Virus record (IMG/VR): IMGVR_UViG_3300046455_000155
Span: 1-40,051 of that record
Strand: one strand, 5' to 3'
Source of the DNA: a virus
DNA length: 40,051 bases
The notes under the pieces are model-generated. The model searched no databases and was not told the origin of the DNA. It saw only the letters and a program-made list of their open reading frames with translations. Within the stretch, counting starts at the first letter, position 1, and each line of letters begins with the position of its first letter. Positions 507 through 39,765 of the stretch are shown piece after piece. The position numbers and the translations under genes are program-made.

Positions 507-526
507 GGGAGCGGCATGGGCCGCCG

Positions 527-599
527 TGGCAGCAGTTGGAATCGAACCAACCGTGGACCGGTTTACAGCCAGCCCTGGCACCTTGCCTCTTCTACTGCC
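527..599 (-). tRNA. tRNA-Tyr (GUA anticodon), phage-encoded
   Basis: On the minus strand the acceptor arms GGCAGTA and TGCTGCC pair over 7 bp (one G-U). The T-arm is GTTGG-TTCGATT-CCAAC. The anticodon loop CTGTAAA gives GUA, with stem GCTGG/CCGGT containing two G-U pairs. The variable loop is 5 nt and the discriminator base is A. The D-arm is short (GGC-AAGGT-GCC). CCA is not encoded. It lies after the early-operon terminator and before the HNH/terminase module, so it is probably read by late or readthrough transcription. Confidence 0.88.
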
Positions 600-603
600 G
601 TGC

Positions 604-14060: not shown

Positions 14061-14161
14061 CATAGCGTTTCGACTAAGCGCAAGTACCTGCGCGATCGAA
14101 TTCAAGTAGATTACATCGGTGTAATCCAAGTACCGATCGACATACCCGATTAGCCGATGTG

Positions 14162-14194
14162 TTGCAAGTTAGTCCGTACTGACCGTAAAGTTAG
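14162..14194 (+). promoter_or_regulatory. Promoter of the plus-strand HTH gene with GTTAG sites
   Basis: -35-like TTGCAA (14162-14167), 18-base spacer, -10-like TAAAGT (14186-14191); predicted start is within one base of the ATG at 14199. GTTAG occurs in the spacer (14168-14172) and over the -10 (14190-14194). The sequence GTTAGCCACATGAC here differs from GTTAGTCACATGGC on the opposite gene at only two of 14 bases. Confidence 0.6.
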
Positions 14195-14198
14195 CCAC

Positions 14199-14447
14199 AT
14201 GACAAGTTATGGCGAGAGCCTTGAATCAGCGCTCTCTACTCAGATCAAAGTCGAGCTCGTGGAACGCGGCCTAGGTCAAAAGGACCTGGCGGAGATGGTT
14301 GACGTCCACCCTGTAACGATGAGCCACTACCTAAAAGGCAAGCGGTCGATGCCAATGCCGACCTTCTTCCGCGTTGCTGAGGCGTTCGGGATTAGTCCGA
14401 AGACTCTAATGGAGCGCACTGAGGCTCGGGTCCGGCCAGAAGCGTAG
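14199..14447 (+). CDS. XRE-family HTH regulator, candidate immunity repressor
   Basis: An 82-aa protein starting MTSYGESLESALSTQIKVEL. The HTH is LGQKDLAEMVDVHPVTMSHYLKG, then FFRVAEAFGISPKTLMERTE. It is divergent from the Cro-like gene and runs toward the integrase, the usual place of a phage repressor. An ATG 14 codons upstream is possible but lacks a ribosome site; the predicted leaderless start at 14199 is preferred. It has no separate dimerisation or cleavage domain, so induction would not be by LexA-like self-cleavage. Confidence 0.82.
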   Translation: MTSYGESLESALSTQIKVELVERGLGQKDLAEMVDVHPVTMSHYLKGKRSMPMPTFFRVAEAFGISPKTLMERTEARVRPEA

Positions 14448-14574
14448 ACGGCAGGACGCCCGCGCCGGCCGCAGCATCGCCGAGTTCGCGGACTGTCATG
14501 GCCTCAATGGTGATGCGCTGCAAGTTTCCCCCCAAGGGATTATTCGAAAGTGTGTTCGATAGTTCAAAGACCAT
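14392..14574 (-). CDS. Possible small antisense-side ORF
   Basis: A 60-codon ORF beginning MVFELSNTLSNNPLGG, with GGAGGAA eight bases before the ATG. It overlaps the end of the plus-strand HTH gene by 56 bases. The ribosome site lies inside the 14573-14610 hairpin. An ATG six codons earlier is the alternative. No family recognised; it may be a chance frame. Confidence 0.3.
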   Translation of the reverse strand: MVFELSNTLSNNPLGGNLQRITIEAMTVRELGDAAAGAGVLPSTLLAGPEPQCAPLESSD

Positions 14575-14610
14575 ACGCCATTCCTCCGACATTACGGAGG
14601 GGTGGCGTAT
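14573..14610. repeat. Two-part palindrome in the immunity region
   Basis: ATACGCCA (14573-14580) pairs with TGGCGTAT (14603-14610), and CCTCCG (14583-14588) with CGGAGG (14595-14600), separated by a 2-base internal loop; terminal loop ACATTA. No T-run on either strand, so an operator or an mRNA structure hiding a ribosome site is more likely than a terminator. Confidence 0.65.
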
Positions 14611-14793
14611 TTGGTGTCTGCTGTACGGGATTAGGGTACCCGCATGGGGTCTGAAAGTTTAAATTGGAGTTGTGCCGCGCATAGCCACGGCGTAGCCTTG
14701 CACATGAATCCGTACCGCCCATATGGACATTGCGGTTCGTCCGGGGCCATGTAGGTTCCGGTGGGAGTTTTCTAGTCGCGAACGGATAGTCTT
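14611..14793. other. Non-coding stretch between two HTH genes
   Basis: No well-supported gene. A 36-codon plus-strand frame (14644-14754) begins six bases after TAGGGT but has no ribosome site and odd composition; I do not call it. A promoter for the next HTH gene is expected here: TAGTCT at 14787-14792 is a possible -10 but I see no clear -35. Confidence 0.4.
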
Positions 14794-15069
14794 ATGCCCA
14801 TGCCATCAGGGAAAATGCAGGAGTCGGGGCCTTTTGCGCGGGCCATCTCGGCAGAGATCCGCGCAACAATCGCCCGCAAGCGACTTACCGTGAAAGAGGT
14901 CGCGCACCAGTCTGGGCTTTCGGAGAGCTACCTGGGCAAGAGGCTGCGGGACGTCGCGCCCCTGACGCTCAACGACATCGAGGCCGTATGCAATGCGCTG
15001 GGTGAAAACCTGCTGGCATTCGCGGAGGCTGCGCTCGAAGCCGCCAGAGAGGCTGACGGCGAGCAGTAG
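14794..15069 (+). CDS. Second plus-strand XRE-family HTH regulator
   Basis: A 91-aa protein, MPMPSGKMQESGPFARAISA, with HTH sequence LTVKEVAHQSGLSESYLGKRL and LTLNDIEAVCNALG, then an Ala/Glu-rich helix. ATG at 14800 is an equally good start (leaderless from a -10 at 14787-14792). A strong terminator follows within eight bases. It may be the true repressor or a partner of the gene at 14199. Confidence 0.82.
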   Translation: MPMPSGKMQESGPFARAISAEIRATIARKRLTVKEVAHQSGLSESYLGKRLRDVAPLTLNDIEAVCNALGENLLAFAEAALEAAREADGEQ

Positions 15070-15280: not shown

Positions 15281-15333
15281 AGCTTCCTGCCAGAATCGAA
15301 CTGGCGACCTTCTCATTACGAGTGAGACGCTCT
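15281..15333 (-). other. attP core: 3' part of tRNA-Thr (CGU)
   Basis: On the minus strand AGAGCG, anticodon arm TCTCA-CTCGTAA-TGAGA (anticodon CGU), AGGTC, T-arm GCCAG-TTCGATT-CTGGC, and acceptor strand AGGAAGC. The 5' half of a tRNA (acceptor GCTTCCT, full D-arm) is missing, so this is not a tRNA gene but the segment that would restore the host tRNA on integration. It is 140 bases before int. Exact crossover ends cannot be seen. Confidence 0.88.
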
Positions 15334-15470: not shown

Positions 15471-16676
15471 ATGGCGCGAGGCAAGGGCGAAGGGGCCCTC
15501 TTCAAGGATGGCCGCGGCTACTGGACGATCCGCATTGAACTGCCTCGCGGCGTGGACGGTAAGCGCCGGCAGAAGGTGATTCGTCGCAAGGACAAGAAGG
15601 CGGCGATGGCCGAGATGGCAACGGTCAAAGCCGACCTCAAGAAGCACGGCAACCTGCCAACCTCATCCCTGACCGTCGAGAGGTGGCTGCAACACTGGAT
15701 CGACGAGATTGCGCCGAAGGAAATCCGCCCTAAGTCTTACGGGTCCTATAAGTCCATGGTGGAAGTGTGGCTTATCCCGCTGCTCGGCCGGCACAAGATC
15801 GACGCGCTCACCGCCGACCACGTCCGTCGCATGTTCGCAACCATCACCAGCACGCCGAGGAGCCAGAAGCTTCGCGGAGAATCGGACACCCCTGACGGTA
15901 CGCCGATGGTCGGCGCTGATACTGCCATCAAGGCGCATGCGGTCCTGTCCTCAGCGCTCAAGACTGCGATGCGCGAAGGCAAAGCCACGCGGAACGTCTG
16001 CGAAATGGTGGACCCGCCGCGGAAGGCCAAGGTGGCGCAGGCCGCGCTCACAACCGATCAGGCGCTCCGACTGCTGGCGCACATCGCAACGCGGGCGGAC
16101 GGCGCACTGTGGGCGACATACCTGCTGACGGGAGCTCGGCGCGGGGAAATCCTTGGACTTGAGGTGGACCGCGTTAGCGACACGCTGGATCTTTCCTGGC
16201 AGTTGCTCCGGCTGACCGACATCAGCACGGCACCCGCCGATTACGAGTACCGGCACCTGCAGGGCACGCTCTACCTCACCCGCCCCAAGACCAAATCAGG
16301 GTGGCGCATCGTCCCGCTCGTGGAACCACTGCGGTCCATCCTCGCGCTCCACATGCAGGGAATGGAGCGGGGGCTGGTCTTCACCCGCAACGGCCGCCCT
16401 TGGGATCCTGACGGCGCCACGAAGGAATGGGCGAAGGTGCTAGCCGAGGCTGGACTGCCGGACAATGTCGTCCTACACGGGGCCCGGCACACCGCCGTGG
16501 ACCTGCTCGATGCCGCCGGCATTGACTGGGACACCATCAAAGACATCGTTGGGCACAGCACCCGGCAGATGTCTCAGGCATATCGATCAGCGCCGGACAT
16601 GAAGCGACTGTCTGGGGCCCTGGAAAAGGTGGCGCTAATGCTCGAAGCCAAGGCCTCGGGCGCCATCGAAGCCTAG
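15471..16676 (+). CDS. int: Tyrosine-family site-specific integrase
   Basis: A 401-aa recombinase. An AP2-like arm-binding domain (about 1-60, GRGYWTIRIELPRGVDGKRR), a SAM-like core-binding domain (66-170), and the catalytic domain: Arg223 (TGARRGE), Lys in KTKSG (273-277), His336-x-x-Arg339 (HGARH), His362 (GHS) and nucleophile Tyr371 (QAYRSA). It would join attP to the host tRNA-Thr gene. ATG is used with GGGAAATGAGA upstream. The gene is plus-strand, so it can be expressed in the lysogen, and it is followed by its own terminator. Confidence 0.96.
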   Translation: MARGKGEGALFKDGRGYWTIRIELPRGVDGKRRQKVIRRKDKKAAMAEMATVKADLKKHGNLPTSSLTVERWLQHWIDEIAPKEIRPKSYGSYKSMVEVWLIPLLGRHKIDALTADHVRRMFATITSTPRSQKLRGESDTPDGTPMVGADTAIKAHAVLSSALKTAMREGKATRNVCEMVDPPRKAKVAQAALTTDQALRLLAHIATRADGALWATYLLTGARRGEILGLEVDRVSDTLDLSWQLLRLTDISTAPADYEYRHLQGTLYLTRPKTKSGWRIVPLVEPLRSILALHMQGMERGLVFTRNGRPWDPDGATKEWAKVLAEAGLPDNVVLHGARHTAVDLLDAAGIDWDTIKDIVGHSTRQMSQAYRSAPDMKRLSGALEKVALMLEAKASGAIEA

Positions 16677-16697: not shown

Positions 16698-16731
16698 ACG
16701 CCCCCACCATCCGAAGATGGCGGGGGCATTA
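16698..16731. terminator. Terminator after int
   Basis: GCCCCC-A-CCATC, loop CGAA, GATGG-C-GGGGGC, followed by ATTAG on the plus strand and AAAA/TTTT on the other side. The stem has one A-C mismatch. It separates int from the SGNH gene, which therefore probably has its own promoter. Confidence 0.75.
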
Positions 16732-16769: not shown

Positions 16770-17588
16770 TTGGCTAAGAAGCGTTTCAGGATGCGCGGTA
16801 ACGTGTGGCAGCTTGCTGGTCTGGCTTTGCTGGCCTTGGTAACTTTGGGGGTTGTCGCGTACTCCCTGTCCCCGAGCACCCCGCCGGCGGCGACTGTAAG
16901 CTACACGCCCGAGCCACTACCTACCCCCACGGCGGTCGCGCTCCCGAAGATCAGCAGCTTTGATGCTGCGGCCCAGAAGCTGCGGACCACGGAAGACCCA
17001 TTCACCCTGACCATCGTCGGCGACTCGACAGGCTTCGCCGAACAGGGCTGGGTTGTTGCGTCACTAAAGGACATCAATCGGGCCACTGGCCGGACTATTG
17101 AGTTCAGCACATGGAACATGGCGTCGGGAAAGTACGATCCGGCGAGGACCATAGGAACAGGTGCCCCGACGCTCACGGTGTGGAACGGATCAGCGCCAGG
17201 CAAGGACGCAACCTACTCGCGCACAAACCTGGCAGCGCTGATGCCCGCGAAGACTGACCTGCTCATCATCAACCACGGGCATAACGTCGGGCTTCCGGAC
17301 ACCATGCGGACGATGCTCGTGGACGCTGCCGCGAAGGCCGGGCCCGGTTCCGCTGTTGCCATCATGAAGCAGAACCCCGAAGTTGGCGCCGGCCAGTCCG
17401 CGCAGGAGAACCGCATGAAAGCCGTGGCCTCTATCGCGGCAGACTTCCCGGGCGTGGAACTGATCGACGCCTTCGCGGCTTTCGACGTGAGGAACCCTGC
17501 GCTGCTGATGCCTGACGGGGTGCACCCGACCGCCGAAGGCTACCGGTTGTGGGCCGATGTGTTCCTTCGGCGGCTGGGCTTCGCCTAG
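16770..17588 (+). CDS. Membrane-anchored SGNH hydrolase, lysogeny-module gene
   Basis: A 272-aa protein. A basic start (MAKKRFRMRGN) and one membrane span (about 13-32) are followed by a Pro/Thr linker, so the enzyme part faces outside. SGNH motifs: GDS at 84-86 (nucleophile Ser86), NHGHN at 168-172, and DGVH with Asp249 and His252. Family members remove acetyl or acyl groups from polysaccharides or lipids. TTG with GGGGGAC upstream is the start. It lies between int and the tail genes and overlaps the tail SGNH gene end by four bases. A lysogenic-conversion role is inferred. Confidence 0.88.
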   Translation: MAKKRFRMRGNVWQLAGLALLALVTLGVVAYSLSPSTPPAATVSYTPEPLPTPTAVALPKISSFDAAAQKLRTTEDPFTLTIVGDSTGFAEQGWVVASLKDINRATGRTIEFSTWNMASGKYDPARTIGTGAPTLTVWNGSAPGKDATYSRTNLAALMPAKTDLLIINHGHNVGLPDTMRTMLVDAAAKAGPGSAVAIMKQNPEVGAGQSAQENRMKAVASIAADFPGVELIDAFAAFDVRNPALLMPDGVHPTAEGYRLWADVFLRRLGFA

Positions 17589-18880
17589 GGTCGGGTCCTG
17601 CGCAGTACAGGCCGGCCTAGCCGGATCGTGCCGACGGCTGAAATATCGAACGAGAATGTTAGTCCGGTGGCGTTCGCTGGCGTTGTCAGGGTCGGTGTGC
17701 GCAGGATGCCCGTGGCAGGCAGGTTGTTGTCGAGCGGGATGGTGTTGATGTCTGCGCCGTTCAGGTCGAGGTCGATCACGGTGCCGCGGTTGGCGAAGCC
17801 ATTGTTGGCGTCGAACGTGGAGAGCTGCACCCTGAACAGGTCCAGGTCTGTGATGCTCTCCAGTTCGTACTCGATGGCGCCCCACACGATGTCACCTGCG
17901 GCGAGGTTCGTCCCCAAGTTTAGGGTCTGCTGGAAGCGGAGCTTCTGAGAGACGTTCGTCAGCGCGAACTGCTGCCATGTTCCGGCCTTGCCGTCCGTGC
18001 GGGCAACCTTGGATGCGGTGACGCCGGTCAGGTCAGACGCCGTGTAGGTGGAGACAACCCATGAGTCGGCTACCTGCCCAGTCGCCTGGGTGCCGACGGT
18101 GCCGGCTGTGCCAGTGAACATCGGGTTAGTCAGCAGATTCGGCTTCGCAAAGGACGCGGCGTTGCCGCCAGCGTCCACGTTGGATGTCGGCAGGATGTTC
18201 ACTGCGGGCACTTGCGTGGTCAGGGCTTCGGCCAACACCTTGCCCATCCGCATTGCGCCGCCCGTGGAAGCGTGCGTACCGTCCCCGGTGTATGCGGTGG
18301 TCCCTACGACGCGGTAGTTCCCGTCTGCTCCGGCCAGCACTGAGTGGTAGTCAGCGATGATCATTCCCGGTCGCGTGAGCGCCTCGTCGCGGATGAAGTT
18401 GTTGATCCGCTCGATGGTGACGAGCTGGGTCGTGGTCGCCCCCGAGTAGGGTGCGATGGTGCCCGCGATAAGTCGGATACCAGCGTTCTGGATGGCGTCG
18501 TAGATCGCCGTCAGGTTCGCTTGGATGGTTGCGAAGGCCACGCCGGTAATCATGTCGTTGGTCCCGGCCAGGACGTGAGCGTAGCCGGGCTTCACGTCGA
18601 TAACGTCCTGCTGGACGCGGGCAAGGATCTGCGTCGTGGTCTGCCCGGTAATCCCACCGTTCACCGTTCCCGGCGCTGCGACGATCTGGAGGCGCTGCCC
18701 CAGCCGTTGCAGGGCCCAAGTGATGAAGCCGCGTCCGGCGCGGTAGGAGTTCAGTCCGGTGGTGTCCTCCGACATGTCGGTGAAGGAGTCGCCAAGAAAT
18801 GCGATGGTGTTGGCCGGCTTCCGCTGGAATGCCTTGTCAGCGGCTACGCGGGAGTAGCCGGGTGCGTCGAGGATACCCAT
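17585..18880 (-). CDS. Tail-associated SGNH esterase
   Basis: A 431-aa protein, last gene of the late region. Hydrolase domain about 1-240: GDS at 30-32 (Ser32), NGGITG at 74-79, GTND at 106-109, and DGTH with Asp200 and His203. The C-terminal 180 residues (LLTNPMFTGTAGTVG, later DSWVVS and VQLSTFDA) look like a beta-sandwich sugar-binding domain. It probably de-esterifies host surface polysaccharide during adsorption. No signal peptide. It is one of two SGNH enzymes here and converges on the other. Confidence 0.88.
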   Translation of the reverse strand: MGILDAPGYSRVAADKAFQRKPANTIAFLGDSFTDMSEDTTGLNSYRAGRGFITWALQRLGQRLQIVAAPGTVNGGITGQTTTQILARVQQDVIDVKPGYAHVLAGTNDMITGVAFATIQANLTAIYDAIQNAGIRLIAGTIAPYSGATTTQLVTIERINNFIRDEALTRPGMIIADYHSVLAGADGNYRVVGTTAYTGDGTHASTGGAMRMGKVLAEALTTQVPAVNILPTSNVDAGGNAASFAKPNLLTNPMFTGTAGTVGTQATGQVADSWVVSTYTASDLTGVTASKVARTDGKAGTWQQFALTNVSQKLRFQQTLNLGTNLAAGDIVWGAIEYELESITDLDLFRVQLSTFDANNGFANRGTVIDLDLNGADINTIPLDNNLPATGILRTPTLTTPANATGLTFSFDISAVGTIRLGRPVLRRTRP

Positions 18881-19922: not shown

Positions 19923-21677
19923 CTAGTAGGTGTTGTCGGAGACGGTCGCGGCGGAACCTGCGGCGATGCTCACGAGGGCGGCATCGGATACCCAGCCGGT
20001 AGCGAAGATGTCCTTGACCTTGCCCTTCGTGCTGGTGGTGTAGATGTCGACGGCGGCCGTGTATCCGTTGGTGTCCTTGGGGATCCGCAGGTTGCGGATG
20101 CTGAACTCTGTCCCGCCGGAGATGGAGAAGTGCTTTTGCCGGATCGCGTCGGCGCGCCCGTTGAGGATGGACCCGCCACTGACATCGATCCCTACGCAGG
20201 CGTTGTAGAAGTAGTAGCCGCCGCCGTGGCCATCGACGTCCACGTCCCGGATCTTGATGTCCGTGCATGTGCTGAAACGGGCAATGTAGGCGCCGAGGTT
20301 GATGAGCTGCCCGCCGCGGATGTTGAGCTTGTTCACCCGGAAGGCGTACAGCAGGCACCTGGCGACATTCAGGTAGTTGTCGACCATGGACAGCCCGACC
20401 GCGTCCTGGATGTACGCGAGGTCGGCGCCCTTATCCCCGGACGTGCCGGGCGTGCTGAACGAGTCCTTGAGAGTGTTCGTGTTGATCCGGATGTTGCGGG
20501 CGTTCTGCGTCTGGGTGCCGCGCAGGTTGATGACCTGCTCGTCCGCGTCGGCAGTGAAGCCCTCGAAAATGTTGTCTTCGATGAGGATGTTCATGATGGG
20601 CATGGGCGTCATGGAGACCGACGCGGCGCCGGCCACCGCGACGTTGGCCATCGATGTGCCGGTGCTGATCGGGTAGGCGCCGATGACGCGGGCGGCCCGG
20701 TTCGACGTGTTCTTGAACTTGTTCCCGCGGATCTCGATGTTGCGGGCGCAGAAGAAGTGAATCCATCCACGGGTCAGGACCGCGAAACCGTCCGTGATGG
20801 TCGACGTATCCGCGCCGCCCTCGACATAGTTGTTCAGGAACTTGATGTTGTCGAACCATGAACCGTCGACGCGGGAGTGTGAGCCGATCGGGTTCGGCGC
20901 CGGGTACGGGGTGACGCCGACCGTCTGGGGCAGGAACTTGGAGTTTTGCACCGTGACGTTGATCGTGGGAAGCCCGTCGAAGCTGGCCGGCGCGTCGTAG
21001 CCGCCGCCGTCAGCCATGGAGTAGTCGATCTGGATCGCTTCGACGTATTCGCGGTTAGTGGCCGGGTTGAAGCCGGAGAAGCTGCAGTCGTCCACGAGGA
21101 TGCCGTTGCAGCCCATCAAGTCGATCGCGTGGCCGCTGATGGCAGTCTCAGTCCAGTTGCATTTGCGGAACGTGATGTCCTGGGCGTGGTGGAGTGTCAC
21201 ACTGATCCCGTTGCCGGATCCGGGCCCGACGAACCGGCCGCGGAACGACAGGCCCTCGAAGGTGACGTTGCGCGCCGAGGAGCCGTAACCCTTCGGTCCG
21301 CCGGAGATCGCATGGAACGTGATGTAGGTTGAGCCGCTGAGCCCGTATTTCCGGATCGTCGCACCGTAGCCGATGATGTGGACGTTCGAGCGGAGGATCA
21401 CGTACCCGAACAGGTGGTACGCGCCCGGCGGGATAAGCAGTGTCCCGCCCTTGCCACCGTTCCAGGCCGCGTCCATCGCAGCCTGGAAAGCGGCGGTGTT
21501 GTCCGTGCCGCCCGCGTCAGTCGCGTCCGCAACAGCAAGGTAGTCAAGGACGTTGACCATGAGGTCGCCCTTGCCGACCTTCCCGGCCGAGCTGGAGCCC
21601 GGTGGAAGGTTGACGTCCTTGACCTTGATCGACGGCGGCAGTGTGAGGTCATCGCCCACTGAGATAATGCGGTCCAT
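19923..21677 (-). CDS. Tailspike, pectate-lyase-like beta-helix
   Basis: A 584-aa protein. The N-terminal anchor (about 1-40, ISVGDDLTLPPSIKV) is followed by VNVLDYLAVADATDAGGTD, then TLLIPPGAYHLFG, the start of a Pectate_lyase_3 right-handed beta-helix. Regular repeats such as NVTFEGLSF, NIEIRGNKF and NILIEDNIFEG follow. These spikes bind and usually cleave host surface polysaccharide. The catalytic residues cannot be picked by eye. It is encoded after the lysis genes with the other host-contact genes. Confidence 0.9.
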   Translation of the reverse strand: MDRIISVGDDLTLPPSIKVKDVNLPPGSSSAGKVGKGDLMVNVLDYLAVADATDAGGTDNTAAFQAAMDAAWNGGKGGTLLIPPGAYHLFGYVILRSNVHIIGYGATIRKYGLSGSTYITFHAISGGPKGYGSSARNVTFEGLSFRGRFVGPGSGNGISVTLHHAQDITFRKCNWTETAISGHAIDLMGCNGILVDDCSFSGFNPATNREYVEAIQIDYSMADGGGYDAPASFDGLPTINVTVQNSKFLPQTVGVTPYPAPNPIGSHSRVDGSWFDNIKFLNNYVEGGADTSTITDGFAVLTRGWIHFFCARNIEIRGNKFKNTSNRAARVIGAYPISTGTSMANVAVAGAASVSMTPMPIMNILIEDNIFEGFTADADEQVINLRGTQTQNARNIRINTNTLKDSFSTPGTSGDKGADLAYIQDAVGLSMVDNYLNVARCLLYAFRVNKLNIRGGQLINLGAYIARFSTCTDIKIRDVDVDGHGGGYYFYNACVGIDVSGGSILNGRADAIRQKHFSISGGTEFSIRNLRIPKDTNGYTAAVDIYTTSTKGKVKDIFATGWVSDAALVSIAAGSAATVSDNTY

Positions 21678-21679
21678 GC

Positions 21680-22162
21680 TCAGACTCCTGTCAGGTAAAA
21701 GCCGGGGTTTGCGGGATCCTCGACTAGCTGCCCGCCGGAGGTGATGAAGTACAGGCCGGGGTTGGACTGGTCAGGCAGGATCGAAATGCCCGACGATGCC
21801 GCGGCGTCCGTGGCGGCCTTGGTGGCTGCAGCGGCGGCCGTTGCCGCGTCCTGCGCCGATGAGGTAGCGGACACCTGCGCCGCCAGGGCGACGGACTTCA
21901 TGCCCTCGTAGGACGTGAAGAATCCCGTGAACCCGCCGCCGGACCATGCGACCCGGTCGAGCGTCGGGTGGGCGAATGCGGAGGCGAACCCGTTCGCGTT
22001 GACGGGGATCGGGTTGGGCAGCGGCGAACCGTCCGGGGCGGTGATCGCGATCGGCGTCATGGTCGTGTCGCCCGGGGCGAAGATCGTCACCGACGCGCCG
22101 CCGGCAACGTTCTCCGGGTTCGACGGATCCGCGGCGAAGATCTGCTCAAATGTGAAGGCCAT
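21680..22162 (-). CDS. Ala-rich tail fibre-like protein
   Basis: A 160-aa protein. The N-terminal domain (FTFEQIFAADPSNPENVAG to VAWSGGGFTGFF) resembles the small beta-domain at the start of phage fibres. An Ala-rich coiled-coil-like region follows (AATAAAAATKAATDAAAS). The end carries two related motifs: DQSNPGLYFI and DPANPGFYLTGV. It lies next to the tailspike gene and may join spike to tail. Confidence 0.8.
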   Translation of the reverse strand: MAFTFEQIFAADPSNPENVAGGASVTIFAPGDTTMTPIAITAPDGSPLPNPIPVNANGFASAFAHPTLDRVAWSGGGFTGFFTSYEGMKSVALAAQVSATSSAQDAATAAAAATKAATDAAASSGISILPDQSNPGLYFITSGGQLVEDPANPGFYLTGV

Positions 22163-34187: not shown

Positions 34188-35390
34188 TTACGCGACAGGC
34201 GTGATCGTGGTCTTCACGAAGCCAGCCGGACGACGGACAGCCAGCGCCAGGCGGCGCTCGGCACGAACCGTGATGCGGTTGTTCGTGAAGTCGTTGCCTT
34301 CGGTGTTCGTGGCCTCGACGCGGACGCCGCCCTTGGAAACGACCGAACCGGCCTGACCGAACGCGCCCACGAGCACAGTGCCCGCGGCGATCGCCGGGGT
34401 AACGACGGTCTGGAGACCCCACAGCGGGGGCTTCTCCTGGATGTTGCCGTTGCCGTACTGGCCGGCGAAGAATCCGCCGCCGAAATACTGGCCATTGGCA
34501 TCCTTGGACAGCCGCAGCGTCTGGTAATCAGCCGGGCTGATCACGATGCCGTCAGCGGTCAGACCGGATCCGGTTTCGACCTTCGTGATGGCGCGGAAGA
34601 TGGTGTCCTGGGCGTTGTCGCCCGCGGCGGTGGAGCCGCGAACTTCGGTCTGGATACCGACACGGTTCAGGAGGCCGCGGAGGTTGCCGGCGGAACCGGA
34701 GCCGTTGAGGAGCTGATCCTCGATGAAGAGGTTGAGCTGGTACAGCAGGCGGCCGTCGATGGCCGTCTTGAGGAACGGCAGGTCTTCGACCAGTTCGTCG
34801 GATTCCTTGATGAACCCGGCAACCTTGGACAGCGCCTCGGTGACGGCGGTCGGATCGCCGAAGTGGAGCTGCGGCTTCTGGCCGTTCTCCGCAACGAGGC
34901 CGAAGGCGCCTTCAACGAGGGCGGACTCCACAAAGTAAGTCAGCGCGGTACCGGAAATCGCTTCCGAGCCGAGCAGATCCTCGATGGTCAGGCGCCGGCG
35001 AACACCGGTCAGGATGTTCGTGTCGACGCTGGTCAGCGCGTTACCGAAGACGGTCCCGGTGACCTGCACGTCGGAAGAGGCCTTGAACTCCGGGGTGGAG
35101 ACGGTCAGCCGCGATCCGCGCTTGCCCGCCAGGTCGGCGCCAGTGGACTTGACGAAATACTCGCCGAGCGACTTGGCGGCGACAGCCTCGGGAGCCTTGG
35201 GGGCGCCGGCGTCCTTGAACTGCGCGAGCAGCGCATCGCCGTCAGCGATGGACTTCTCACGGATCTGGGCGGACTCGATGTCGGCCTTGATGGTGTCCAG
35301 ACGTGCGGCCTGGTCGGTGGTCAGGGTGTTGTCTTTGGCGGCCTTGATGAGGTCAGCAAGTTCCGCCTTGAGCTCTGCGAGAGTTTTCAC
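34188..35390 (-). CDS. HK97-fold major capsid protein
   Basis: A 400-aa protein, GTG start (GTGA overlap with the protease). The first 60-80 residues (LAELKAELADLIKAAKDNTL) form a coiled-coil delta domain acting as internal scaffold and probably removed by the protease. The shell domain begins near 95 (RGSRLTVSTPEFKASSDVQV), with IEDLLGSEAISGTALTYFVE and the late FTNNRITVRAERRLALAVRR. Typical length and order for HK97-like heads. Confidence 0.95.
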   Translation of the reverse strand: MKTLAELKAELADLIKAAKDNTLTTDQAARLDTIKADIESAQIREKSIADGDALLAQFKDAGAPKAPEAVAAKSLGEYFVKSTGADLAGKRGSRLTVSTPEFKASSDVQVTGTVFGNALTSVDTNILTGVRRRLTIEDLLGSEAISGTALTYFVESALVEGAFGLVAENGQKPQLHFGDPTAVTEALSKVAGFIKESDELVEDLPFLKTAIDGRLLYQLNLFIEDQLLNGSGSAGNLRGLLNRVGIQTEVRGSTAAGDNAQDTIFRAITKVETGSGLTADGIVISPADYQTLRLSKDANGQYFGGGFFAGQYGNGNIQEKPPLWGLQTVVTPAIAAGTVLVGAFGQAGSVVSKGGVRVEATNTEGNDFTNNRITVRAERRLALAVRRPAGFVKTTITPVA

Positions 35391-36195: not shown

Positions 36196-38148
36196 TTAGG
36201 TGAGGGAGACTTCGACGCTGCACTCGCAGTTGGCCACGCCGTCAGCGCCGAGAACGGGGTCGCCGGGCCAGTCAGCGCCATTCGAGAACTTCTCGCCGAC
36301 AGGGACCGTCTCGCCGTCCATCGCCGCATGTTCAGAGCGCGGATTGGACGAATTGACGACCCATGTCTTCGTGGCGCTGGCGCTGTTCTGCTTCGCGGTC
36401 TCCATCGTGGCGAACCCGGCGAACGTCGTCAGCAGCGTCGTAGCGATACCGTCGCCGCGTCCGCCCTCGGCATCATCGAAGACCTTCTCCGGTGAGCGCG
36501 TAGGGTTGCCGTCGCCGTCGTCGCCCGGGTCATCGAGCGCCGCCTGGATCTGGTCGAACGTCGTGGAGTTGATCTTCCCGGCCCGGGAGTCAGCCACGGC
36601 GCGGAGGAACTTCTCCGTCCGCGCCACGTCATAGGCGTCAGGTGCGAGACCACTCGACGCCAGCACATCAGCGGCTACCTGCCCAGTCACTGACATCGCC
36701 AGGCGGTAAAGGTCGTCAGAGAGTTCCTTGTCCCAGCGCTCCTGATCCCACCACGGCGCGTCAGCCTTCGCATTGAGCCGTGCGAGGACCGCCTCGCGCT
36801 GCCGCTTGAAGAACTTCGACAGGACGGCCGCCGTGGTCCGTTCGGACCCCGAGTCGGCCTCGCCCTTGATGGATACCGGGCCCGCCTTCGAGTGGACCGT
36901 GATCGCCTTCGGAGCGCTATCCCGCGGGGACGACTGCCCGCCCACGAGGACGTTCAGCGGAGTCACCAGCGAATCGGCGTCACCATCAAGCGCCGGCAGA
37001 TTCTCTAGGCCGCGGATCTCGTTCGCCGTCATGTACGGGCGCCCGACAGCCGAAGAGTAAGCCGCGGCCTGCTCGTCGAACGACGCCGCCAGCTTGGCCT
37101 TCACGTTGAACTCGACGTAAACGCCGGGCCGCGGATCCAGCAGCGGGACAAGCTTCGAGTTGATGCGGTCCTGAATCATTTTCAGCCAGGGCCCCAGCGT
37201 TTCGCCATACAGCATCTTGCGGAACTCGCGGACATTCGCGTAGGACACGCCGCCAGTCGCGCCGAGCATCGCCGGGTTGATATGCCAGGCGCGGGCCACG
37301 GTCTCCAGCGACAGGTTCGCCGCCTCGATCCACTGCTCCTCGCGGGCATTGAACCGGACCTGATTGATGGTCATGCCATCCTCAAGGACCGGCATCCCGC
37401 CGACGTTCGCGCCCTTCGCCTTGTAGGCTTTCATGTCCTCTTTGAAGCGCTTGCTGCCCTCATCGGACCACGCGGGCGCGTCCTTCGGGCGGGCAATGTA
37501 GGAGCCGATCTGGCCGCCGTTCTTCCAAATCCCGGTGCGGAACTGCTGCGCCGCGATCTGCTCTGCCAGCGTCTCCTTTAGCGTGGCCACCACGGGCGAA
37601 CCATAATCCGTGTAGTACGGATTCCAGTTCTTGAAGTGGAGGAGATTCTTGCCTTCAATGCGGATCGGCGGCTTCGTCACATCCGGCATATAATTGATGA
37701 CCAGATCGCCATCTATCTCGGACCCCGAAACGATCGTCACGAGATCCACAGCCAGCGGACGCAACTGCCAACCAGTCGACGTCTGCGCAATCAGCCACCA
37801 CGCCTCATCGTTCAAAGCGAGATCCGAAACCAGAGCGACCTTCAAGTCATAGCCCGTCATCGCCGGGTTAGGGTTCGCCAGCAGCTTCGCAACCGGGGAA
37901 TCCGTGAGCCGCTGCCGGTCAGTGTCCGAAACGCGCTGATACGTCGGAAGCCCAAGCTGGCCGATATTGCGGGCCAGGAAGTCAACCACAGTGCGGACGT
38001 TATGCTGCGTCTCCCACAACTGAGCCGGCGCCATGCCAGTCACCTTGCGGAGCGCCTCGATAACCTCAGCGGCAGACGGGCTCGTCGAACTAACATCGAC
38101 AGCCTGGTAGATGATGGATGAACGGCGGAAGAGGTCAAGGACGCCCAT
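36196..38148 (-). CDS. Portal protein with C-terminal MuF-like domain
   Basis: A 650-aa protein, ATG directly after the large terminase stop. Residues 1 to about 400 are an HK97-type portal (VRTVVDFLARNIGQLGLPTY, LLANPNPAMTGYDLKVALVS, MLGATGGVSYANVREFRKML). About 430-650 is a MuF/SPP1-gp7-like minor head domain ending SNPRSEHAAMDGETVPVGEK and CECSVEVSL. Usually these are separate genes; here one chain would form the DNA portal and carry an ejected or internal head domain. Confidence 0.9.
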   Translation of the reverse strand: MGVLDLFRRSSIIYQAVDVSSTSPSAAEVIEALRKVTGMAPAQLWETQHNVRTVVDFLARNIGQLGLPTYQRVSDTDRQRLTDSPVAKLLANPNPAMTGYDLKVALVSDLALNDEAWWLIAQTSTGWQLRPLAVDLVTIVSGSEIDGDLVINYMPDVTKPPIRIEGKNLLHFKNWNPYYTDYGSPVVATLKETLAEQIAAQQFRTGIWKNGGQIGSYIARPKDAPAWSDEGSKRFKEDMKAYKAKGANVGGMPVLEDGMTINQVRFNAREEQWIEAANLSLETVARAWHINPAMLGATGGVSYANVREFRKMLYGETLGPWLKMIQDRINSKLVPLLDPRPGVYVEFNVKAKLAASFDEQAAAYSSAVGRPYMTANEIRGLENLPALDGDADSLVTPLNVLVGGQSSPRDSAPKAITVHSKAGPVSIKGEADSGSERTTAAVLSKFFKRQREAVLARLNAKADAPWWDQERWDKELSDDLYRLAMSVTGQVAADVLASSGLAPDAYDVARTEKFLRAVADSRAGKINSTTFDQIQAALDDPGDDGDGNPTRSPEKVFDDAEGGRGDGIATTLLTTFAGFATMETAKQNSASATKTWVVNSSNPRSEHAAMDGETVPVGEKFSNGADWPGDPVLGADGVANCECSVEVSLT

Positions 38149-39765
38149 TTAGACAACCACCATGCCTCTCGTTTCGTAAGAACTTGTTTTTGGCTTGCCC
38201 GCCCGGGAGGCAAGGACGGTCAGACCCCAGTAGGCCTGCTCGGCGGCGATCAAAGGCGCGACGTCAGCCGGGGACTTGGAGCGGTTCAGCACGAACACAT
38301 CCCCCAACTGTTTGGTCACGGCCACCGCTGCGGCGACATCGAGGACGGGCTGGGCCAGGTGGAAGACATTGCCGTTGCGGACAGCGTCATAAAACGCGCC
38401 CATGGCCGCGCCGAGGTCAGAGCCGCCGCACTCCATCACCGGCAGGCCGGCGGTAAGCATATGCTCAATCAGCGCGGACACCGGAGCGCCCTTACCCTGG
38501 ACAACGATGGTCTCCGCCCCGATCGTCGGGAACTTAGCCACCAGCGTCGGGACCACCCATTCAGTGCCGGCGCGCTGCGTGATGACCTCGACATGCGCGG
38601 AACCGTCAGCACGCCAGCCAGCGACCGCGAAATAAGACATCTCACGATTGGCGGACACGTCAACGGACAGGACCATCGGCGAACCCTTGGCGATCTCCGA
38701 CTCGGCGTCGTGCCGGGAGTCCCAAACGCCGGCGCCGAACGGCGACTCGGCATCGATCGTGACCCACTGGCACAGATTCTCGGTACGGAAGACATGCTCC
38801 GGGACGCCCTCAGCGCCGCCGACGCCCACCAGAGCCGCCTTAGACGCCAGCATTTCCTCGGTCACATACGCGATGCCATGCTCATCCTCGTAGCCCATGG
38901 ACGGGTTAGCCTGAGCCCACCCATCGCGGTCCCAGATCCCGCAGTCATCCGGCGCGGACCACTCAAACAGGCCCATCGTCGTGTCGTGCGAGTTCGCAAA
39001 CTCTTCGATGGACTGAATGCCGCCATCGACGTACTGCTCCCAGTCCGCCATGCGGGCGAGGCCCTGCTTGCGGAGACCGCGGAGGACATCAGACTTAGCG
39101 GTGCCGGCATTGGACACGGCGAGCACCTGGGAGGAGAAGCGGGCATTAGTCGTGTTCGTCAGCGCCGACCACGACTCCCAGTCGCGCTGCTGCCGGAGCT
39201 CATCGAAAGCGAGATCCGTTACCGACAAGCCACGGCCGCCGTCATCCGACGCGGCCTCGCACTTGTACCGGGAACCGTTCGCCAGTTCGAGGTACTTGTT
39301 GCCGTTGACGTTCGACTTGTGCGCGATGTACTTGCGGGCCGGCGAACGCTGCAGCGCCTTCGTCGACAGGTCAAGGATTTCCTCGGCCGCGTTCAGCTTG
39401 TGCGCGGCGCCCAGGATCAGCGGCGGCTCAGCCTCCGGCCCATCCCACATCATCATCCGCCACAGCAGACGAGTCGACATGATGAAGCTCTTCCCGTTCT
39501 GCCGGCTCACCAGCAACAGGACAGTCTTGAACCGCAACACCGGAAACGCATCGCTCGAAACTGAGCCCAACGCGAGCTCCAGCGAATGGATCAAGAACCA
39601 TTCCTGCCACGGATGAAGACTGCGGCCTGCGATCTTCGCCGCGTCGATAGCCTCAAATCCCAACGACGTCTCCGGCGTCAAAGGCCGGAGCGGTCGTGTC
39701 CACAAACGCGGCTCAGTCTTACCCAGCCTGCGCTCGCCCCGCCCGCTTCCGCTTGAGTTCGTCAA
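38149..39765 (-). CDS. terL: Terminase large subunit
   Basis: A 538-aa packaging motor. Walker A-like VSRQNGKS at 86-93, Walker B TDLAFDE at 183-189, coupling motif SNAGT near 218, and a nuclease domain starting LSVDVSANREMSYFAVAGW near 366. It pumps DNA into the head and cuts it. The start is uncertain: TTG at 39765 overlaps terS by 47 bases; no ATG occurs before the conserved HPWQEW region, so this TTG or a later TTG at codon 21 is used. Confidence 0.94.
   Translation of the reverse strand: MTNSSGSGRGERRLGKTEPRLWTRPLRPLTPETSLGFEAIDAAKIAGRSLHPWQEWFLIHSLELALGSVSSDAFPVLRFKTVLLLVSRQNGKSFIMSTRLLWRMMMWDGPEAEPPLILGAAHKLNAAEEILDLSTKALQRSPARKYIAHKSNVNGNKYLELANGSRYKCEAASDDGGRGLSVTDLAFDELRQQRDWESWSALTNTTNARFSSQVLAVSNAGTAKSDVLRGLRKQGLARMADWEQYVDGGIQSIEEFANSHDTTMGLFEWSAPDDCGIWDRDGWAQANPSMGYEDEHGIAYVTEEMLASKAALVGVGGAEGVPEHVFRTENLCQWVTIDAESPFGAGVWDSRHDAESEIAKGSPMVLSVDVSANREMSYFAVAGWRADGSAHVEVITQRAGTEWVVPTLVAKFPTIGAETIVVQGKGAPVSALIEHMLTAGLPVMECGGSDLGAAMGAFYDAVRNGNVFHLAQPVLDVAAAVAVTKQLGDVFVLNRSKSPADVAPLIAAEQAYWGLTVLASRAGKPKTSSYETRGMVVV

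Follow-up and report, generated by a model that had tools for sequence, protein, structure and literature searches.

Why would a temperate phage carry two genes for SGNH hydrolases that face each other, one closing its tail genes and one lying among its lysogeny genes? The question is raised by a virus record of 40,051 bp, which was analyzed over its whole length and is referred to here as the window. Its genome plan is that of a temperate siphophage. Structural genes occupy the minus strand, from TerL (38149-39765), portal (36196-38148) and capsid (34188-35390) onward to position 17585, and the plus strand carries repressor-type genes and a tyrosine integrase gene (int). The second SGNH gene follows int and occupies what we call the slot, the position convergent with the last tail gene (Table 1). 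The answer that we favor, by a narrow balance of probability, is that the two genes form a matched unit: a tail enzyme that acts on the receptor, and a membrane-anchored editor of that receptor that would exclude sister phages.

Table 1. Features of the window discussed in the text
Feature	Position	Strand	Evidence and remarks
Two repressor-like HTH genes	14157-14447, 14794-15069 (span 14157-15069)	+	PHROG transcriptional repressor/regulator families; strand shared with int and slot gene
Tyrosine integrase	15471-16676	+	Phage_integrase 5e-12; same strand as, and 5' of, slot gene
Strong GC hairpin in the gap between int and slot gene	16700-16727	+	Fold -22.8 kcal/mol, z -4.6; no T-run
Slot gene, predicted membrane-anchored SGNH acyl hydrolase (272 aa)	16770-17588	+	Motifs, Pfam, PHROG, AlphaFold2, alignment, clade
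Block common to window and Arthrobacter phage Hum25	16965-19170	.	2.2 kb, 78% DNA identity
Last late gene, predicted tail SGNH esterase (431 aa)	17585-18880	-	Lipase_GDSL_2 2e-17; phrog_6102; 87.5% identity to Hum25 gene 26
Beta-helix tailspike	19923-21677	-	Pect-lyase_RHGA_epim 7e-7; phrog_22811 tail spike 3e-93; upstream of tail esterase
Conserved appendage N-terminal gene	21680-22162	-	Precedes tail-tip enzyme across phage group

Are both genes what they appear to be? SGNH/GDSL enzymes are recognized by a Ser in block I, a Gly in block II, an Asn in block III, an Asp-x-x-His in block V, and the SGNH fold. The slot gene starts with TTG at 16770, and its product has all the required blocks: GDS at residue 84 (S86), G144 in N139-x-S-x-x-G, NHGHN at 168-172 (N172) and DGVH at 249-252 (D249/H252). 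Ser86 and His252 are invariant in the slot-family alignment, and Asn172 is nearly so. A basic N-terminus is followed by a transmembrane (TM) helix (~12-32), a proline-rich stalk (~33-65) and the SGNH domain (~70-272). The AlphaFold2 model has a mean pLDDT of 87, mostly >90 in the SGNH core, with a single hydrophobic helix at 12-32, and its fold matches SGNH structures. Pfam matches fall on either side of the cut-off (Lipase_GDSL_2 at 3e-7, slightly below; Lipase_GDSL at 6e-5, slightly above), and the PHROG match is to a "tail fiber" family (2e-30). The tail gene starts with ATG at 18880 and closes the minus-strand late operon, after the tailspike and appendage genes. Its product has GDS at 30 (S32), GTND at 106-109 (N108) and DGTH at 200-203 (D200/H203), it matches a PHROG phage "lipase" family at 2e-49, and its Hum25 homolog is annotated as an esterase. 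The two stop codons share CTAG at 17585-17588. Thus, most of the original prediction for this locus is borne out: a tail gene with GDS, GTND and DxxH motifs, converging with a 4-base overlap on a gene with one membrane span and GDS, NHGHN and DxxH motifs that lies beside int. The part that went unconfirmed is a "sugar-binding-like end" of the tail protein, for which there is no Pfam match and an AlphaFold2 model (pLDDT 57) too poor for use; weak CBM_4_9 matches occur in two related tail genes. A functional meaning for the overlap was also considered and dropped, because a 4-base overlap with the tail gene is common to many kinds of slot gene among relatives.

The slot gene is not part of the late operon and has the tail-enzyme gene and the lysogeny genes as neighbors, as expected of prophage surface conversion. 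The hairpin that separates it from int is a possible terminator of int transcription, which suggests that the slot gene need not share the int transcript. This hairpin is absent from the output of a terminator scan that requires a T-run, and a sigma-70 promoter scan of the window gave no signal above chance. Between the repressor-like genes and int, positions 15285-15330 resemble, by eye, the 3' part of a tRNA-Thr (CGT) gene and are a candidate attP core. Were attachment to occur there, the slot gene would keep int as its neighbor in the prophage. A complete tRNA-Tyr gene lies close to the left end of the record (526-602, minus strand).

What might the two enzymes do? The arrangement suggests that the anchored enzyme may change the docking sugar once the virus lives in the cell. 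First, the tail SGNH esterase would de-acylate the host surface polysaccharide during adsorption. Second, the convergent gene would act as a lysogenic-conversion gene, expressed in the lysogen. Third, its product would be inserted N-in, holding the SGNH domain outside the membrane. Fourth, the anchored domain would edit that polysaccharide or one that overlaps with it, with acyl removal as the most likely means. Fifth, sister phages with the same tail would presumably no longer adsorb productively. An anchored enzyme could instead act late in infection. Neuraminidases destroy receptors and thereby keep newly made virions from adhering to debris, and the slot enzyme might likewise free progeny. 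While the slot and tail enzymes are indeed of one class, the slot gene is on the strand opposite the late operon, in the company of the repressor and int genes, and its product is anchored in the membrane, which makes a role in progeny release very unlikely.

The original prediction had proposed looking for the slot gene alongside tail esterases in related prophages. It was found there. A membrane-anchored SGNH gene is convergent with the last tail gene in 14 further phages or prophages, or 15 cases with the window, the anchor call (TM or lipobox) leaving out L009. These are Arthrobacter phages RootBeer, Shoya, AbbyDaisy and Bauer, Rhodococcus phage Mbo4, and loci L006, L007, L008, L009, L011, L014, L020, L059 and L077. 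Wherever the lysogeny genes are covered, the slot SGNH gene lies between them and the last tail gene; in Bauer, a 66-aa membrane gene sits between the slot and tail genes. The tail partner has an SGNH domain in 14 of the 15 cases (14 of 16 if the ambiguous L047 is counted), the exception being Mbo4, with a pectate-lyase-like tail gene. The L007 tail domain has a weak profile score (5.8e-4), and the AbbyDaisy call combines the deposited annotation with motifs (GDS, GRND, DRTH) and a marginal score in Pfam. A search of viral contigs with the tail esterase alone gave no matches. Relative to the Hum25 copies, both genes of the window are under purifying selection (dN/dS 0.24 for the slot gene and 0.10 for the tail gene). 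Together with the wide recurrence of the arrangement, this argues that the pair is not a product of chance.

The anchored proteins vary in both their anchors and their active sites. The anchor is one TM helix, or a lipobox in L014, L020 and L047. The stalk motif PVSxxV is common to anchored proteins of different SGNH families, such as those of L014, L020 and Bauer, and it follows the membrane anchor in several of L003, L004, L006, L014, L020, L047 and L107. Its distribution looks as if catalytic domains had been swapped onto a common anchor. The slot enzymes of Mbo4, RootBeer and L014 have another residue in place of the block V Asp at -3, and Mbo4 gp25 has lost both the block III Asn (SHT) and the block V Asp (TKIH), possibly with altered or reduced activity. 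Hence, activity may vary among slot enzymes. The degenerate motifs of Mbo4 gp25 coincide with the only tail of the set that lacks an SGNH domain.

What else fills the slot in related phages? AT3 acyltransferases occupy it in L045, L052 and L064, AT3-SGNH fusions in Hum25, L047 and L076, a hexapeptide acetyltransferase in Pitbull, and Wzy_C proteins, which are Wzy-like polymerases, in Maja, L061 and Zucker. An AT3 gene also adjoins a sialate-esterase-type tail gene in MrSmee, but on the tail strand. The slot gene of L046 (16878-17396), an actinobacterial phage record, adjoins int, converges with the late operon and encodes a Lipoprotein_Ltp protein (3e-45). The Ltp of phage TP-J34 is the prototype of superinfection-exclusion lipoproteins (PMC3952083). 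Judged by what its genes encode, the slot is a surface-conversion slot across related phages, and one with an exclusion side.

Do slot and tail classes match more often than chance would have it? An esterase tail accompanies 14 of 15 slot-SGNH loci and, of the relatives sampled that lack a stand-alone slot SGNH gene, 8 of 20 (Fisher p 0.0013; p 0.007 with L047 as an exception, p 0.016 for anchor-sampled loci only), values that are optimistic and indicative only because the sampled loci are related. The comparison loci, whose slot is empty or filled by some other gene, were sampled via a Gp37-like tail protein and the appendage N-terminus (21680-22162 in the window), both unrelated to SGNH and thus neutral anchors. 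They include L050 and L073, which have no settled slot class, and L079, with a weak tail match, was left out. The L046 tail is counted as an esterase because it exceeded the cut-off in a six-frame search, although whole-protein hmmscan missed its GDSL domain. L047 combines an AT3-SGNH protein and an SGNH lipoprotein with a tail of no recognized domain class, and BrayBeast and L070 have esterase tails without a stand-alone slot SGNH gene. Matching extends to the sequences themselves. Distances among slot SGNH proteins track those of their tail partners (Mantel r 0.56, p 5e-5) and do not correlate with Gp37 distances; the partial correlation is weaker when Hum25 is dropped (r 0.33, p 0.03).

There is also evidence that the two genes are exchanged together. 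The block that the window has in common with Hum25 contains the tail esterase together with the SGNH domain of the slot gene and takes in the 3' end of the gene ahead of the esterase, and outside it the two genomes have only short pieces in common. L086, which has several tail-region segments ~80% identical to the window, has neither SGNH domain. Two pairs of close relatives show such a swap. In Zucker and Bauer, the 6.5 kb leading to the tail tip is 99.7% identical, and identity resumes, at 88%, at int. Between these points they diverge in both genes: Zucker has an annotated glycoside hydrolase tail and a Wzy_C-like membrane protein (slightly below the Pfam cut-off), in Bauer, an SGNH tail is paired with an anchored SGNH protein. 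Similarly, 4.7 kb of tail genes is 97% identical between Pitbull and Hum25, after which both the tail enzyme and the slot gene differ. Pitbull has a tail of beta-helix type (by inspection) and its hexapeptide acetyltransferase, and Hum25 has an SGNH tail and its AT3-SGNH protein. Thus, the tail-tip enzyme and the slot gene have been replaced together in two closely related phage pairs. All four phages were isolated on one soil species, Arthrobacter globiformis.

Where does the anchored enzyme come from? In a tree of GDSTG-type domains, the tail enzymes are separated from a clade (100/99) that unites most anchored enzymes and also includes (82/85) four genes from the chromosomes of Mycetocola, Labedella and Okibacterium. 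The slot is also occupied by other SGNH families, outside this main clade. A separate clade with chromosomal members indicates that the family is long-standing and did not arise by each phage recently copying its tail gene. Abutting stops between convergent genes for related domains could also bring to mind an invertible tail-fiber switch, as in Mu, or a displaced, functionless duplicate of the tail gene. Either is hardly credible. No long inverted repeats flank the pair, which speaks against an invertible segment; the separate anchored clade with its chromosomal homologs speaks against a recent duplication, and a functionless copy would be expected neither to have its own anchor nor to be under purifying selection.

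The chromosomal homologs bear on another alternative, in which the slot enzyme serves the fitness of the host by modifying peptidoglycan or a wall polymer, with effects on autolysis, lysozyme or surface properties that are unlinked to adsorption. Indeed, the homologs lie in a conserved neighborhood of Microbacteriaceae chromosomes, so such enzymes can serve the cell. A host-fitness role leaves the tail-class matching, the joint exchange and the Ltp gene in the L046 slot unexplained, however, and we consider it decidedly unlikely. In the Mycetocola, Labedella and Okibacterium loci (L021-L025), no phage genes were recognized in the neighborhood, and apparently pgsA-like and type III polyketide synthase-like genes are nearby, as judged by eye. 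These homologs may be either domesticated prophage genes or the cellular source of the phage family.

Does the anchored enzyme remove acyl groups or add them? The closest homolog of the slot SGNH domain, at 65% identity, is in Hum25 gene 27 (L002:20152-22092), where an AT3 domain is followed, in one fused protein, by a slot-type SGNH domain that has a membrane helix of its own. Gene 27 looks like a natural step from a stand-alone enzyme toward an OatA/OafA-like acyltransferase. The anchored SGNH protein might therefore be the transferase half of an O-acetyltransferase, adding acetyl groups supplied by an AT3 or MBOAT partner that is fused to it in Hum25 and provided by the host in the phage of the window, whose slot gene adjoins no such partner. 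Such an enzyme would still block superinfection. AT3 and AT3-SGNH genes occupy the slot in relatives, and cooperation is also possible between AT3 and SGNH on separate proteins, as with WecH and PatB (PMC9558356). PatB and OatA also match the slot protein in a fold search, alongside esterases, so that esterase and transferase are not separable by fold. On the other side, the slot gene of the window has a single TM and no Acyl_transf_3 (AT3) domain by Pfam, and an AT3 domain is absent from all six searched phage records with a stand-alone slot SGNH gene. PF19040, the profile for SGNH domains fused to AT3, is matched by the slot proteins of L047 and L076, and it gives no match in the slot gene of the window or in the Hum25 SGNH domain. 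The nearest solved relatives in a slot-profile search are carbohydrate and sialate O-acetylesterases, including acetyl-xylan esterases, and the search reaches neither OatA nor PatB at E 0.01. The nearest viral folds are tail-fiber SGNH domains, and stand-alone slot SGNH proteins accompany esterase tails. Among tail SGNH proteins, G7C gp63.1 is a proven deacetylase and those of Klebsiella prophages are active esterases (PMC13123978). Acetyl addition is thus on the unlikely side, and removal appears clearly the likelier activity of the slot enzyme. The original prediction had gone further: the lysogen enzyme was to remove the same group as the tail enzyme, giving immunity by receptor editing. 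Comparative genomics upholds the editing slot, the matching of tail class and the exchange as a unit, but removal of the same group is the likeliest option rather than a certain one, because Hum25 fuses the same SGNH domain to AT3.

What would the matched unit imply? There is perhaps an even chance that temperate actinophages carry interchangeable cassettes, each with a tail-tip enzyme and an anchored editor of matching chemistry, such that esterase tails come with an anchored esterase that erases the receptor of the lysogen. First, a general "key plus lock-changer" module would then exist, and an exclusion gene could be foreseen from the accompanying tail enzyme. Second, the receptor chemistry of actinophages and their superinfection immunity would be inherited as one module. 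Third, receptor modification could be read from two neighboring genes. Zucker and Bauer, and Pitbull and Hum25, all phages of one host species, are natural pairs for direct testing.

How does the pair compare with known systems? Prophage seroconversion is known mainly from Gram-negative O antigens, and the module would extend it to actinobacterial surface glycans and to hydrolytic erasure. For example, phage D3, which also has a Gram-negative host, carries an O-acetylase and a polymerase as seroconversion genes. These resemble the acetylase and Wzy-type contents of the slot in relatives; D3 is not known to have an SGNH pair. The expected parallel with prophage modification of surface sugars appears to hold, and the pair most resembles conversion by P22 gtr and Sf6 oac. 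In P22-type phages, as proposed for the window, prophage-expressed membrane enzymes encoded beside the tailspike gene (gtrABC) alter the polysaccharide receptor of the tail enzyme; in epsilon34, the tailspike is gene 19 and gtrCBA are genes 20-22, and the direction of gtr toward the tailspike can be surmised from this gene order (PMC2629481). P22-type gtr is a three-gene system that glucosylates a Gram-negative O antigen, whereas here, in actinophages, one anchored SGNH protein shares the class of the tail enzyme. In Sf6, O-acetylation of the O antigen by Oac blocks superinfection through the tail enzyme (PMC9558356). Oac is an AT3 protein that adds acetyl, whereas the slot gene has no AT3 domain and its product most likely removes acyl groups. 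AT3-SGNH proteins and PatB/OatA similarly hold an extracytoplasmic SGNH domain behind a membrane anchor, and they differ from the slot protein in the features of AT3 and PF19040 described above. The tail SGNH deacetylases of G7C and Klebsiella prophages are alike in fold and, for the tail gene of the window, in likely job (PMC13123978), whereas the slot protein is membrane anchored and encoded outside the late operon. Ltp of TP-J34 is, like the slot protein, a membrane-anchored prophage protein from the lysogeny region, but it blocks DNA injection and does not act enzymatically on the receptor (PMC3952083). A prophage-encoded anchored SGNH enzyme paired with a tail SGNH enzyme was not found in the literature (open-license PMC papers). 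By its probable mechanism, the pair would be prophage surface conversion in a new form, in which actinophages match an anchored hydrolase to the enzyme of their tail.
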